The notes beneath the pieces are model-generated. The model worked only from the letters and a program-made list of their open reading frames with translations, searched no databases and was not told where the DNA came from. The translations under genes and the position numbers were made by a program. Positions 7,776 through 33,209 of a DNA stretch of 34,004 nt are shown piece by piece. Location of the stretch: IMG/VR virus record IMGVR_UViG_3300010430_006947, positions 1 through 34,004 of that record; one strand, 5' to 3'. The DNA comes from a virus. Each line of letters opens with the position of its first letter. Position 1 is the first letter of the stretch.

Positions 7776-8654
7776 ATGTATAGACCAACAATGAAATCAA
7801 AGTGTAGCGGTGGAGGCTTTTCTGATTTAGGTTTTTCATTGGCAGGGATTGAAATTATTCAATCCCTTGAGATTGATTTGAATTGTGTTAAGACGCTTTC
7901 AGCGAATTTCAATCATAAGATACTACACACTGATATTCGAAACGAAACAGTTCTTTCTCAAGAAAAATCAGATATTATAGCAGCAACTTATCCATGTACT
8001 AAATATTCCACTATTGCGGATATCCATGGCACAAGAACTGGCGATGATTTGTTTTTACATGTATTTCGTCACATTGCAATTGAACAGCCTGAAATGTACA
8101 TTATTGAGAACGTTCCGGGAATGAAGAAATTTCCTGTAGTAATGGAAGCCATGACAAAGCTTCCCAATTATTACATTAACGTTTTCTGCCCACTGGATGC
8201 TTTGAACTGGTTACCTCAGAAAAGAGAAAGGTTGATACTGATTGGCACAAAGAGAAGGTTTAGTATTGCTCCGCCAACCAGTACAAAAAGAATTCTTCTT
8301 TCTGATATCATAGACGAAATTCCTGATATGAAAGTGCCTGATTACGTTGTGTCAAGGATAAACGGTAAATACAGAGACAAGCCAATAGTAAGCGATCCAG
8401 CGGATAAAGATGCTTACGCTCCAACCTGTGTAGCTCATTATTCAAAAGACAGAGGAACAAGATTGGTAGTAGACAAATCTCATCCTTTGGGAGTTCGACC
8501 TTATTCAGTACGTGAATGGGCAAGACTACAAGGTATTCCAGATTCTTATATTTTGCCAGTTTCAGACAGTGAAGCATATAAACAAATAGGAAATGGTGTT
8601 CCGGTACACATGGCTGAATGGATTGGACGCGAAGCAATAAAATATTTTAATTAA
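7776..8654 (+). CDS. C5-cytosine DNA methyltransferase
   Basis: A 292-aa protein that would methylate cytosine at C5 using SAM. Motif I is SGGGFSDLGF (11-20). Motif IV is YPCTKYST with the catalytic Cys at residue 74; the usual PCQ is PCT here. Motif VI is IIENVPGM (109-116), motif VIII is LPQKRERLILIG, motif IX lies in RPYSVREWARLQG and motif X is YKQIGNGVPV near the end. The target-recognition region between VIII and IX is short. No restriction endonuclease is nearby, so it is probably an orphan anti-restriction enzyme. The first ATG (7776) is used; an ATG 5 codons later is an alternative. Confidence 0.9.
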   Translation: MYRPTMKSKCSGGGFSDLGFSLAGIEIIQSLEIDLNCVKTLSANFNHKILHTDIRNETVLSQEKSDIIAATYPCTKYSTIADIHGTRTGDDLFLHVFRHIAIEQPEMYIIENVPGMKKFPVVMEAMTKLPNYYINVFCPLDALNWLPQKRERLILIGTKRRFSIAPPTSTKRILLSDIIDEIPDMKVPDYVVSRINGKYRDKPIVSDPADKDAYAPTCVAHYSKDRGTRLVVDKSHPLGVRPYSVREWARLQGIPDSYILPVSDSEAYKQIGNGVPVHMAEWIGREAIKYFN

Positions 8655-10024: not shown

Positions 10025-10897
10025 TTAACTAATTGTGCTATTCCACTCCGGAACCTCACCGGCAACACTCACATTTTTAAACAACATGATATCAGTGTAA
10101 CCGGCATTGTGATTTACTTTCACCTTTATTTCCTCTTTGGTTGAATTGTGGAAAGGATTAATGGCCGCTAAATTTGTCTCCAGCCATTCACAAAGCTCCA
10201 GTATGCTGCTTTTGTCAGAAGTAAAATAAACGTAGCTATTTTCCTTCAGTACCTTTAATACATCCAAGTAATCAGCCAAACGCCAATAGTTGTTGTAAGT
10301 TCCCTGCTCGGTACTCAAGTAAGGAGGATCTACTATAAAAACCACGCCCGGCTGATTGCGATACTTATTAAACAACTCTTTGTAATCGTTCTTTACAATG
10401 TGTAAACCTTCCAAATAGCCGGTGCAATTGTAATTACTTTTGCGTACACAATTGTACATGGTTTGCTTGCTGAAACCTTCTAAACTGGTAGCGTAATTCA
10501 TACTGAAGAGTAAAGAACTGGAGAGCGTAATATAATCCACAAAGCCATGCTTTTGCTCTTGTTCCTTCAGGTAGCTAATTATTTTTGCCTTTATTCCTGG
10601 ACTAAGCTTCTTATCTTCCGGGCAAGCTTTCACCATTTCCCGGATTGCTTCCAACATGCCATTGGTATTTTCTACATTGATAAGCCGCAAATGGTAGTCG
10701 TCGAAATCATTATAAACTACCATGGCATTCGGTCGTGTATGTTTGGTTGTGTGCGACAATAGACCAGAGCCGCCAAATAAATCAACAAATATTTTTGCCT
10801 CTGGAAACTCCTCTAATGCACTTTTATACAACTTTATAAATCTTCGCTTTTGCCCCATAAATGGCAAAGGCGCACTTGTGTAAATCTTTTCTCTCAT
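10025..10897 (-). CDS. N6-adenine DNA methyltransferase, D12 class
   Basis: A 290-aa Dam-type enzyme. LPFMGQKRRFI (11-21) matches the N-terminal PxxGxK-type motif of the D12 class. VDLFGGSGLLS (38-48) is the SAM-binding motif I, and VDPPYLS (189-195) is the catalytic DPPY. It would methylate adenine in duplex DNA; the target sequence cannot be read from the protein. There is no partner endonuclease, so it is likely protective or regulatory. It is the last gene of the long minus-strand late cluster, separated from the tail gene by 177 nt of strongly folded leader. In Mu the DNA-modification gene mom is also at the end of late transcription, by unrelated chemistry. Confidence 0.9.
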   Translation of the reverse strand: MREKIYTSAPLPFMGQKRRFIKLYKSALEEFPEAKIFVDLFGGSGLLSHTTKHTRPNAMVVYNDFDDYHLRLINVENTNGMLEAIREMVKACPEDKKLSPGIKAKIISYLKEQEQKHGFVDYITLSSSLLFSMNYATSLEGFSKQTMYNCVRKSNYNCTGYLEGLHIVKNDYKELFNKYRNQPGVVFIVDPPYLSTEQGTYNNYWRLADYLDVLKVLKENSYVYFTSDKSSILELCEWLETNLAAINPFHNSTKEEIKVKVNHNAGYTDIMLFKNVSVAGEVPEWNSTIS

Positions 10898-29980: not shown

Positions 29981-29992
29981 ACACTATTTAAA
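29976..29992 (+). promoter_or_regulatory. Family A 17-bp motif overlapping the portal start codon
   Basis: TTTAAACACTATTTAAA; its last A is the first base of the ATG at 29992, and its first bases overlap the stop codon region of the gp36-like gene. This is the tightest coupling of the motif to a start codon. Confidence 0.55.
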
Positions 29993-32508
29993 TGGCTAAG
30001 AAAATTGGAATAATCGGACGTATCGGCGATGCAGCTGAACAAGTGATTTTAAGTAGAGTTAAAAACAGCACCCTCTATGGTGAATACCACAAACGCGCTG
30101 AAAAGGGTGCTCCATGGGATCGTGAAAGCACTGCATACAAAAAACAAGAGATAGAAGACTGGATTAGAGGAGTTGCAGCAGCTACTGATCCGGACACACC
30201 TCAACGCGGTTTACTCATGCGGTTTTATCAAAGTTTATTATTAGATCCACACCTTACTTCTGTTATTGATACTCGCATTTCACGTGTTCAGCGCTCTTCT
30301 TATAAGTTGGTAAACGAAAAAGGAGAAGAAAACGAAGAGCTTAAGAAACTGTTGGAGCGTCCATGGCACGACGACCTTATTAAGTTAACGCTTAATAAAA
30401 ACTTCGTAGGAACAACACTGATTGAAATGTTCTGTACAGATCCAGAGACAATGGAACTTGATCGCGTTATTGCAATCCCTCAATCAAATTTTATAGCACA
30501 CCTCGGAATTGTAACAAAAAACGAAGGTGACGAAACCGGCACAAGCTACCGCGAAGGAAAATACAAAGATTACTACGTACAAGTAGGTGAGTCTTTTGAA
30601 TTGGGAATGCTAAATGAATTAGCCATGGTTGTTATTGCTAAAAAGCTTGGTTTAGGTTCATGGATAAGCTATGTTGAAAAGTTTGGAGTACCACCGATTT
30701 TTGCAATTACCGAACGCATGGATACAGGACGTCGTGATGAATTGTTTGATATGTTGCAAAGTTTTCGATCTAACCACTTTGCAGTACTTCAGGGAAACGA
30801 GAAAATTGAAGTTCCAAACAATTACAATGTAGACGCTTACCAATCATTTAAAGCATTAAACGAAGTTAGCAATAGTGAAATTAGCAAGCGTGTTCTTGGT
30901 GGTTCAGCAATGGTTGACGAAAAAAGCTACGTAGGATCTGCTGAAGTTCAGGAGAGAGTTGCACAGGATAGATACGAGGCAGATAAGTTGTTGTACAAAC
31001 ACTATTTTAACACTCAATTTCGTCAACGCTTAGCTAAAATTTCAAGTGTGTACGCTGAATTTGCCACACATACGCTTGTATGGGACAATCAGGAAACACT
31101 TGATATAAACGGCTACATCGAAGCTGTTACTAAGCTTTCAACCGCATTCGATTTTGATGTGGAAGAAATACGCAACCGTACAGGATTGCCTATTACTGGA
31201 ATGAAAATAGTTTCAACTGAGCCAACCAGTCAAAAAAAAAATCCTGACGCAAGTGGAAAAGGACTAGTTTCTCCACAAGCTCAAACGGATATTTACGAAC
31301 TATTTGCAGCAACATGGGACAAGGCAATAGACAGACTAGCAAACGATATCTACGACGGAAAGGTGAAGACTACCGACTTAGATAAAGATTTGGTGTTGAA
31401 GAATTACGCAGCATTTAATAAGGAAGCTAAAAAGGCTTGGGGCAAAGGTTACTATGATGAACCAATTACCCGACAATTCCGGGAGAATCTATTGCAATTT
31501 GCAGGTGCTAAAGCTCACGATTTAATGAAACAACTGGATGGTTTAAACACTGAAAAAACCAAGAAAGAAGATTTTATTAATCAGGCTAAAGCCATTGTAA
31601 ACAAGCACAACGAACAATGGCTAAGCACTGAGACAAAGTTCGCCGGTGATTGTGTAAGCTCTGCCCAGGAATATGCTTCTTATATGGATGATGTTGATAT
31701 TTACCCAAACATGAAGTACCGCACAATGGGTGATGCCGATGTAAGAAGTAGCCATGCAGCTAACGAAGGTTTAATTATTCCTGTTGATGAAATTACAGCA
31801 CTTGCACCATTTGACTATGGTTGTCGCTGTTGGTACGAACAAACCACCGAAGCTCCAACTAGTGGCAAAGCTATTAAGGGTGTGAAGTTCAAAAACAATC
31901 CTTACAAATCCGGGAAGGTATTTAACGATGAACAAAGCTATTTCCTTAACATGGCTGACAAACACCGTAGCATCATTCGCGATAACACTGAGCTAATGAA
32001 ACAACACATGCCATACAGCCAAACCATAATGGTCGATGACCAAACGGTACATGTGAATGATTTTTACGACTTAACCGATGGTACTGCCAATATTAAAGCA
32101 GCTAAGAAACTGGCTGAAGAGCTGGAGCAAGATGTTTACATTTTGCCTCACATCGAAAACAGCGCTAAGCTTCATCACAAGAACCCTGAAATGGCTATCG
32201 GTAAAACAAGTTATACCGCCGATTTAAAAACCTTTAACCCGGACGTGGCTTCCAGCACTCGCAAGTTTATTGCCAACAGTGTAAACACCGCCAACAAACA
32301 AGCATGTAAAGCGGTTGTTTGCGATATCTCAAAAGCTCCTGAAGCTGACTGTCTGAAAATAGCAGCAACCAAGCTAAGAGGCGAATTAAAAGGAACTGGA
32401 AAAGCCAACATTAAAAAGGTTGTTGTCATTAAGGATAACACGGTAATAATGGTTACACGCAAGCAATTGGCTCAAAAGAATTACCAGAAGTATTTCGAAG
32501 TAGAATAA
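29992..32508 (+). CDS. Portal (DUF935) - MuF - nuclease-like domain fusion
   Basis: An 838-aa protein. Residues 1-410 match the Mu gp29 portal type (LLMRFYQSLLLDPHLTSVIDTRISRVQ, then 'GVPPIFAITERMDTGRRDELFDMLQSF'). Residues 430-620 form a MuF/gp30 domain ending in RTMGDADVRSSHAANEGLIIPVDE and DYGCRCWYE. Residues 687-838 are an extra domain: 'AAKKLAEELEQDVYILPH', NPEMAIGK (731-738), TADLKTF (742-748) and KQACKAVVCDIS (769-780). This resembles C-terminal nuclease toxins of MuF and CdiA type, possibly PD-(D/E)xK-like with E733, D744 and K746. Portal and MuF are usually separate genes (29 and 30 in Mu). The toxin-like end may be injected with DNA, or act in the head (inference). Confidence 0.82.
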   Translation: MAKKIGIIGRIGDAAEQVILSRVKNSTLYGEYHKRAEKGAPWDRESTAYKKQEIEDWIRGVAAATDPDTPQRGLLMRFYQSLLLDPHLTSVIDTRISRVQRSSYKLVNEKGEENEELKKLLERPWHDDLIKLTLNKNFVGTTLIEMFCTDPETMELDRVIAIPQSNFIAHLGIVTKNEGDETGTSYREGKYKDYYVQVGESFELGMLNELAMVVIAKKLGLGSWISYVEKFGVPPIFAITERMDTGRRDELFDMLQSFRSNHFAVLQGNEKIEVPNNYNVDAYQSFKALNEVSNSEISKRVLGGSAMVDEKSYVGSAEVQERVAQDRYEADKLLYKHYFNTQFRQRLAKISSVYAEFATHTLVWDNQETLDINGYIEAVTKLSTAFDFDVEEIRNRTGLPITGMKIVSTEPTSQKKNPDASGKGLVSPQAQTDIYELFAATWDKAIDRLANDIYDGKVKTTDLDKDLVLKNYAAFNKEAKKAWGKGYYDEPITRQFRENLLQFAGAKAHDLMKQLDGLNTEKTKKEDFINQAKAIVNKHNEQWLSTETKFAGDCVSSAQEYASYMDDVDIYPNMKYRTMGDADVRSSHAANEGLIIPVDEITALAPFDYGCRCWYEQTTEAPTSGKAIKGVKFKNNPYKSGKVFNDEQSYFLNMADKHRSIIRDNTELMKQHMPYSQTIMVDDQTVHVNDFYDLTDGTANIKAAKKLAEELEQDVYILPHIENSAKLHHKNPEMAIGKTSYTADLKTFNPDVASSTRKFIANSVNTANKQACKAVVCDISKAPEADCLKIAATKLRGELKGTGKANIKKVVVIKDNTVIMVTRKQLAQKNYQKYFEVE

Positions 32509-32514
32509 AATAAC

Positions 32515-32545
32515 AAAAGGTGAATGCCGGAAACATTCACCTTTT
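32515..32545. terminator. Terminator-like hairpin after the portal-MuF gene
   Basis: AAAAGGTGAATG (32515-32526) pairs perfectly with CATTCACCTTTT (32534-32545), a 12-bp stem with a 7-nt loop. The U's are part of the stem and GGG follows, so termination may be partial. It lies in an 86-nt gap and could lower expression of the gpG-like gene. Confidence 0.6.
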
Positions 32546-32594
32546 GGGCTGAGATTGGACTCGTCCGCTCTCACTTACAAATATACAACTTTTT

Positions 32595-33209
32595 ATGGCA
32601 CGTAAAAATAAAGTACCGGAATTTGAAAAGATGGCTAGAGAACTTAAGAAGAATGCCTCACGTTATGCGGCTTCTGAGTCGGTTAAGTTTTTCCGGGAAA
32701 GCTTTGTTAAAGGTGGTTTTACCGATACAAGTTTTGAAAAGTGGACGCAAACTGGCAATCCAATGGCAGGCAAACGAACCATGTACAACAAAGGTCGTTT
32801 AATGCGATCAATCAAAAAGCTTTCAGCTTCGCTTAACAGAGTTGTAGTTGTTGCCGATTCTGAATATGCAGACATTCACAACAAAGGCGGTTACATTGTG
32901 GTTACTGCCCAAATGAAAAAATACTTTTGGTACAAGTATTACAGTTTTGTTGGTGATGTATCAGTAAATAAAAAAGGAGCAACACCACTAAACAAACGTA
33001 ACGTTGGGCTTGGAAAAAAAGCAATGTTTTGCAAAGCCATGGCATTAAAGCCTGTTGGCTCTAAAATAAAAATACCTAAACACCAATTCATGGGTAACAG
33101 CCGAACCATGATGAGAGATTTCGACAAGTGGTTTGGTGACACAATTAAATTTCAAATAGAGAAACAGTGGAATAAGCCCACAATAAATATTGACTTAAAG
33201 AGTGTTTAA
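32595..33209 (+). CDS. Phage virion morphogenesis protein (Mu gpG-like)
   Basis: A 204-aa basic protein. The segments 'SVKFFRESFVKGGFTDTSFEKW', 'GRLMRSIKKLSASLNRVVVVADSEYADIHNKGG' and 'IPKHQFMGNSRTMMRDFDKW' are the classical pattern of virion morphogenesis proteins: 'L..si.......v.....yA..hq.G', then 'iP.R.flg'. In Mu, gpG (gp31) is needed for tail completion and follows gp30. It follows the fused portal-MuF gene here, keeping the Mu order. Confidence 0.85.
   Translation: MARKNKVPEFEKMARELKKNASRYAASESVKFFRESFVKGGFTDTSFEKWTQTGNPMAGKRTMYNKGRLMRSIKKLSASLNRVVVVADSEYADIHNKGGYIVVTAQMKKYFWYKYYSFVGDVSVNKKGATPLNKRNVGLGKKAMFCKAMALKPVGSKIKIPKHQFMGNSRTMMRDFDKWFGDTIKFQIEKQWNKPTINIDLKSV

Follow-up and report, generated by a model that had tools for sequence, protein, structure and literature searches.

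A portal-MuF-nuclease fusion in a Mu-like phage of Bacteroidota and a candidate RNA antidote encoded opposite the end of its gene

The fusion protein and the gap behind its gene

The stretch analysed here (IMG/VR virus record IMGVR_UViG_3300010430_006947, record G000; all 34,004 nucleotides of it are referred to as the window) is a virus record of a Mu-like transposable phage of Bacteroidota bacteria. It contains a single open reading frame (ORF) in which a portal protein, a MuF head protein and a nuclease-like C-terminal domain are joined in one chain of 838 amino acids. A gpG-like gene follows across a gap of 86 bp. The minus strand of this gap carries a promoter of the Bacteroidota type, then a hairpin with covariation, then a terminator, which together define the gene of a predicted small RNA of about 70 nt. 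The nuclease domain and this RNA are the subject of the present report. The features of the locus are as follows.

29992-32508, plus strand: portal-MuF-nuclease fusion, 838 amino acids (ORF; the architecture recurs in many relatives)
30220-31188, plus strand: Portal_Mu, residues 77-399 (Pfam PF06074, E 1.3e-52)
31642-31830, plus strand: Phage_Mu_F match, residues 551-613 (Pfam PF04233, E 4.4e-7)
32011-32505, plus strand: C-terminal CdiA-CT-like PD-(D/E)XK nuclease domain, approximately residues 674-838 (AlphaFold2 model, match to 4g6v, homologues against PF18451)
32188-32229, plus strand: codons of E733, D744 and K746 (near-invariant in the alignment of relatives)
32299-32301, plus strand: codon of Q770
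32506-32546, minus strand: predicted terminator hairpin and U-run (score 46.0), extending to the stop codon of the oppositely oriented fusion gene
32550-32573, minus strand: predicted 5' hairpin of the small RNA (stem GAGA/UCUC, internal loop GC/AA, stem GGA/UCC; covariation)
32578-32588, minus strand: promoter-like TTGTATATTTG with -7 box TAnnTTTG, reading leftwards
32595-33209, plus strand: gpG-like tail completion or virion morphogenesis gene (weak Phage_tail_S match; phrog_26)

Both the Portal_Mu and the Phage_Mu_F matches exceeded the curated Pfam cut-offs, while the last ~190 residues of the fusion had no Pfam match of their own. The triple fusion was found intact, at 830-870 amino acids, in dozens of related phage records and also in Bacteroidota genomes and is therefore not a sequencing artefact; the single chain of portal, MuF and nuclease-like domain described in the initial annotation was thus borne out. 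In a second branch of relatives the portal has an ORF of its own, apart from that of the MuF-nuclease, so that the portal-MuF fusion is a lineage trait. On one contig (IMGVR_UViG_3300039008_000111; L005/L064) the portal and the MuF-nuclease lie in two frames, while the near-identical L027 is one intact ORF; the split is a frameshift either in the record or in the phage. The fusion of nuclease, MuF and portal is not new as such, having already been published for PBECR nucleases (Iyer et al. 2017, PMC5512222).

The C-terminal domain of the window was modelled with AlphaFold2 (pLDDT 87.5), a check put forward in the initial annotation, and a CdiA-CT-type nuclease toxin fold was obtained. The best structural match (VIA-align) was to the CdiA-CT of Burkholderia pseudomallei (4g6v_A; Z 10.1, rmsd 3.1, 121/132 residues, 15% sequence identity over aligned residues), followed by a type IIS restriction enzyme (Z 6.8) and, lower, by the CdiA-CT of Y. 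pseudotuberculosis (Z 5.2). In a viral library the top matches were named CDI toxin-like, minor capsid, tRNA nuclease CdiA and portal protein. Queried directly against Pfam, NCBIfam and PDB sequences the domain returned nothing, and no PDB entry was matched at E < 0.001 by plain Foldseek, so the fold match rests on VIA-align and on homologues. The Pfam family CdiA_C (PF18451) matched 9/21 homologous domains; L020 (29.9 bits) and L021 (32.5 bits) scored above its cut-off of 26.6 bits, and a gut-phage relative (L006) just under it (25.3 bits). The homologues have in common K-N-P-E, (A/G)-D-L/R-K and a later Q (in the window, NPEMAIG at 731, ADLK at 743 and NKQAC at 768), and the E, D/E, K and Q are near-invariant across about 80 diverse copies. 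The likeness of this C-terminus to nuclease toxin domains had been proposed beforehand, as had E733, D744 and K746 as key residues, and on both points, numbering included, the annotation proved right. A BECR-type (PBECR) nuclease, suspected first, was set aside, since the CdiA_C matches and the fold match favour PD-(D/E)XK.

According to PMC9086364, the CdiA-CT of B. pseudomallei 1026b cuts tRNA-Ala at the acceptor stem, and its relative TA271 is a DNase with an active site of Asp198 and Ser209-x-Lys211. The 11-residue spacing in TA271 is also that between E733 and D744-x-K746 here. Judging by the fold of its closest solved relative, the substrate of the domain is probably tRNA or other RNA.

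The gap 3' of the fusion gene is too small for a protein immunity gene. That the next gene is gpG-like and that no obvious immunity gene follows had been noted beforehand. An immunity protein directly downstream was absent from the window and from most relatives, and Pfam scans of 20 further ORFs of the window returned no immunity family, several small ORFs being without assignment. Nuclease-bearing loci usually have some 60-140 bp between this gene and the next, and the distance can be only 6-22 bp in relatives with no nuclease or a different one (L041-L043, L046, L070, L090). Of the earlier suggestion that the toxin is neutralised elsewhere, the idea of an antidote other than a following gene was kept, and its place was narrowed to a candidate small RNA gene within the gap itself, on the opposite strand. 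The sequence TAnnTTTG is the -7 box of Bacteroidota promoters and forms part of TTGTATATTTGC in these gaps. In the window TTGTATATTTG was the sole match at no more than one mismatch, where ~1.5 are expected by chance, so that the weight of the motif lies in its conservation. The whole RNA of the window folds with a z of -5.7, and no family matching it was found in Rfam 15.

Conservation of the RNA gene and its tie to the nuclease

On the opposite strand of the gap, TTGTATATTTGC, a hairpin and a terminator were observed in nuclease-bearing loci. The box TA[TC]NTTTG was present 45-110 nt from the stop codon in 75/81 such loci, compared to 5/136 gap-matched control genes of the same loci and 0.02 per locus predicted from motif density. 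Intrinsic terminators on the minus strand, often formed from the toxin gene's own last codons, were found in 92% of the nuclease-bearing loci and in 22% of shuffles. Covariation was assessed on 15 class-A RNAs in an unselected MAFFT alignment, a structure-picked alignment (A9) being left out because it had been chosen by fit: 13/19 pairs had changed on both sides, and the covariation score was 0.402 as against 0.191 in shuffles, with 0/500 shuffles as high. Read on the minus strand the pairs comprise 18 G-U pairs versus 8 A-C mismatches, a weak test which agrees with the strand of the promoter and terminator. Across classes the hairpin has two stems with a 2x2 internal loop (GC/AA, GA/GA or UC/UU) between them, and a simple search recovered this pattern in 46/75 RNAs versus 6% of shuffles.

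The RNA was found to be tied to an intact nuclease. Six of the 81 nuclease-bearing loci are without the box, and in four of these catalytic residues are substituted (L070; L076, E to N and K to T; L185, E to P and D to V; L193, E to T and K to V); the antisense promoter is also missing from nearly all nuclease-less loci. L177 and L004, which were counted in only after the exceptions had been inspected, do have RNA promoters (TAATTTTG and, 252 nt away past the extra domain of L004, TATATTTG, respectively), so that in the phage set the RNA is present for every intact E/D/K copy with enough downstream sequence. In L106 the motif is shifted and the RNA present. The association of the RNA with an intact nuclease gave P = 6e-7 (Fisher test), or 3e-6 with L081 counted against it; Fisher values are inflated here by uncorrected relatedness between loci.

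The nuclease and the RNA were also observed to be exchanged together. In four pairs of loci (L058/L054, L003/L004, L101/L100 and L065/L024) MuF and gpG are similar, while nuclease and RNA both differ; in L058/L054 the promoter is common to both and divergence starts directly past it. L004 and L252, for their part, have a common RNA core and a common nuclease type. With gpG and MuF held constant, RNA similarity tracked that of the nuclease (partial r 0.19, permutation P = 0.001; -0.01 for gpG).

An independent sample was drawn from CdiA_C loci of Bacteroidota genomes, which were picked by Pfam alone and examined afterwards. Where MuF lies in the same ORF, an antisense promoter was found 46-76 nt from the stop in 12/13 loci, compared to 4/21 other CdiA_C loci (Fisher P = 4.5e-5); at a looser distance the counts were 12/13 versus 8/21 (P = 0.003). 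On reading, three of the four promoter-bearing others (L268, L281, L285) look like phage MuF contexts. The genes of the secreted-type CdiA_C toxins L267 and L273-L276 are followed after 1-6 nt by an ORF, the arrangement expected with protein immunity. In two distant Mu-like phages (L254 and L256; portal 25-29% identical) the RNA again lies at the end of a MuF-CdiA_C gene, and by sequence the next gene is the tape measure, not gpG. L255 and L257, which lack phage genes, are considered doubtful.

Spare copies of the RNA were identified as well. L083, L107 and L164 have a second RNA gene which resembles the cognate RNA of another phage, and a prophage region of a Carboxylicivirga metagenome-assembled genome (L241:9219-9610) has three tandem RNA genes, each with a promoter and a terminator, the first with the window's core GTGAGAGCGGAnnAGTCCAATCTCAGCCCAAA and the second with the core of L004. 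The parts of this contig that were read gave no portal, MuF or nuclease match; the sole confident nuclease match of the genome is on another contig, with one marginal match elsewhere. The array lies near the end of the prophage region, with perhaps more promoters beyond (TACCTTTG). Two further genome matches, L242 (within an ABC-F gene) and L243, were discarded as false positives.

The RNA as candidate antidote, and the alternatives

From these computed observations (the fusion and its fold; an RNA gene that has a promoter, a structure and a terminator; the link of this gene to the intact nuclease; and the joint exchange of the two) it appears likely that the fusion is a virion-borne CdiA_C toxin and that the small RNA is its cognate antidote. 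Since it is fused to the portal and the MuF head protein, the nuclease would become part of the virion close to the DNA gate, and would enter the cell with the DNA or be exposed there, where it may cut tRNA or other RNA. The virion-producing cell and any lysogen would be protected by the cognate small RNA. We infer that this RNA is transcribed from the housekeeping-type antisense promoter in the 86-bp gap, forms the hairpin with the conserved 2x2 internal loop, ends at the intrinsic terminator, and would inhibit the nuclease by binding to it, perhaps acting as a substrate decoy. The RNA body moves with the nuclease domain as one cassette. The wider proposition, that capsid-borne CdiA_C-type toxins are widespread among Bacteroidota phages with small structured RNAs in place of proteins as cognate immunity and with spare RNAs, gathered in tandem and in a prophage lacking the toxin, as polyimmunity arrays, is held with a little less confidence, though still as the probable one.

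Several observations weigh against this interpretation. The CdiA_C profile in Pfam did not match the window's own domain; L081 has kept the RNA with a truncated nuclease; and L291 has MuF and an intact motif with no such RNA at the usual distance. In L204 and L213, where the MuF genes carry different, PBECR-like tails, a promoter-like antisense TATCTTTG lies at a distance of 63-65 nt from the stop, and other capsid nucleases may thus have RNA partners too. The extra and orphan RNAs are few cases, and the relatedness that inflates the Fisher values has been mentioned. Finally, both the co-swapping and the loss of the RNA with a substituted active site would fit a cofactor equally well.

Such a cofactor or guide, through which the RNA would serve the activity or the target choice of the capsid nuclease instead of neutralising it, is the alternative that survives best, and is judged unlikely. 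Extra RNAs matching the toxins of other phages and a three-RNA array without a nuclease fit immunity, not a cofactor; in the secreted CdiA_C relatives the place of the RNA is occupied by an adjoining ORF; and the accessible text of PMC9086364 describes no RNA guide for the known CdiA-CT tRNase. An antidote is preferred mainly on account of the spare RNAs, which resemble the polyimmunity loci of polymorphic toxins (PMC3482391).

The element could instead be a regulatory antisense promoter and terminator for late genes such as gpG, with no part in nuclease immunity; it overlaps the start region of gpG, and antisense RNAs are common in phages. We regard this as improbable, as the element is found before the tape measure in place of gpG (L254, L256), is gone where the nuclease is absent or dead although gpG is present, and has a sequence which tracks the nuclease and not gpG. 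Slimmer still are the chances that the nuclease, as an early effector of the polyvalent-protein type, is injected to act on host RNA or defence and needs no immunity, with the RNA otherwise employed. MuF- and portal-fused PBECR nucleases are so interpreted (PMC5512222) and a relative (L016/L029) adds a zincin-like HEYGHH domain, but the close link between the RNA and an intact active site would be left unexplained, as would the co-swapping. That the domain is a structural or packaging part with an inactive nuclease fold, as its position on the portal and the dead versions in L070, L076, L185 and L193 might suggest, is scarcely credible given its near-invariant E, D/E, K and Q and its dispensability for the virion, the latter following from the occurrence of the same portal-MuF scaffold without any nuclease domain (L041-L043, L046).

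Relation to known systems and surrounding genes

MuF polymorphic toxins of temperate phages, including some with the CdiA-type cd13442 toxin domain, have been described (Jamet et al. 2017, PMC5576092). As in those, the locus has MuF followed by an exchangeable C-terminal toxin nuclease within the phage head module, next to terminase and portal, and a conserved N-terminal part with differing C-terminal toxins was observed in L054/L058, L003/L004 and others; here, in contrast, portal and toxin share one chain, and instead of an immunity ORF there is a small antisense RNA gene. Other C-terminal domains were also seen on the portal-MuF scaffold, namely a domain with a THNHP motif (L079/L087) and a PBECR-like one, by eye (L090/L180), and in L016/L029 (the same gene as L004) the zincin-like domain is added as the last 260 amino acids of an ORF of 1106. 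The THNHP domain is without family assignment and JAB-like by eye, and the ~290 bp gap behind it possibly holds a minus-strand ORF. In L091 and L281 the MuF domain has intein-like insertions at its conserved RC motif.

The CdiA-CT of B. pseudomallei 1026b resembles the domain in its fold and in the active-site pattern of an acid followed by D/S-x-K, but it uses two-partner secretion and is neutralised by a protein, CdiI. The Portal/MuF-PBECR fusions likewise place a nuclease on MuF and portal in phages; theirs is the BECR fold, with no RNA partner described in the accessible text (PMC5512222), in place of the PD-(D/E)XK fold found here. Bxa, of a Bacteroides stercoris prophage, is also a MuF-fused toxin of a Bacteroides prophage; it is an ADP-ribosyltransferase with two protein immunity factors, Bsi and BAH (PMC11699363).

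Type III toxin-antitoxin systems (ToxIN, CptIN; PMC5086642) offer the likeness of a nuclease checked by a small structured RNA, as is proposed here. Membership was rejected because the gene arrangement differs: no upstream same-strand tandem-repeat RNA antitoxin was found, the RNA here being encoded on the other strand behind the toxin gene, mostly in single copy and under a promoter and terminator of its own. The toxin is furthermore fused to a virion protein and has the CdiA-CT fold, which was the best fold match of the domain; the ToxN/AbiQ-type fold was not among the matches. The locus would most likely work like a type III pair while being a MuF polymorphic toxin in all but its immunity protein.

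To our knowledge, the immunity of polymorphic toxins has so far been a protein, and antidotes made of RNA are a feature of type III toxin-antitoxin systems. A literature search covering few subscription papers returned no RNA partner for MuF or polymorphic toxins. If correct, the proposed antidote would join polymorphic toxins to type III systems in a virion-borne toxin with an RNA antidote, and would explain how the phage tolerates a nuclease on its own portal. Such an antidote could be exchanged, collected and perhaps turned against superinfecting phages. It would also give a structured RNA family outside Rfam 15, and the purpose of MuF toxins would become directly testable by way of a small cassette.

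In the remainder of the window, the gene surroundings are those listed here.

Left side: rve transposase and MuB/TniB-like ATPase
Right side, plus strand: small and large terminase, gp36, the fusion gene and gpG
Minus strand: Clp-type head protease, major head protein and sheath

In L291, a tRNA-Tyr gene (L291:1933-2007, minus strand) lies behind the MuF-CdiA_C gene, in the usual place of the small RNA, and is probably a host tRNA at an integration site. The window also carries a C5 cytosine methylase (7776-8654) and a D12-type adenine methylase (10025-10897), which are likely counter-restriction genes.
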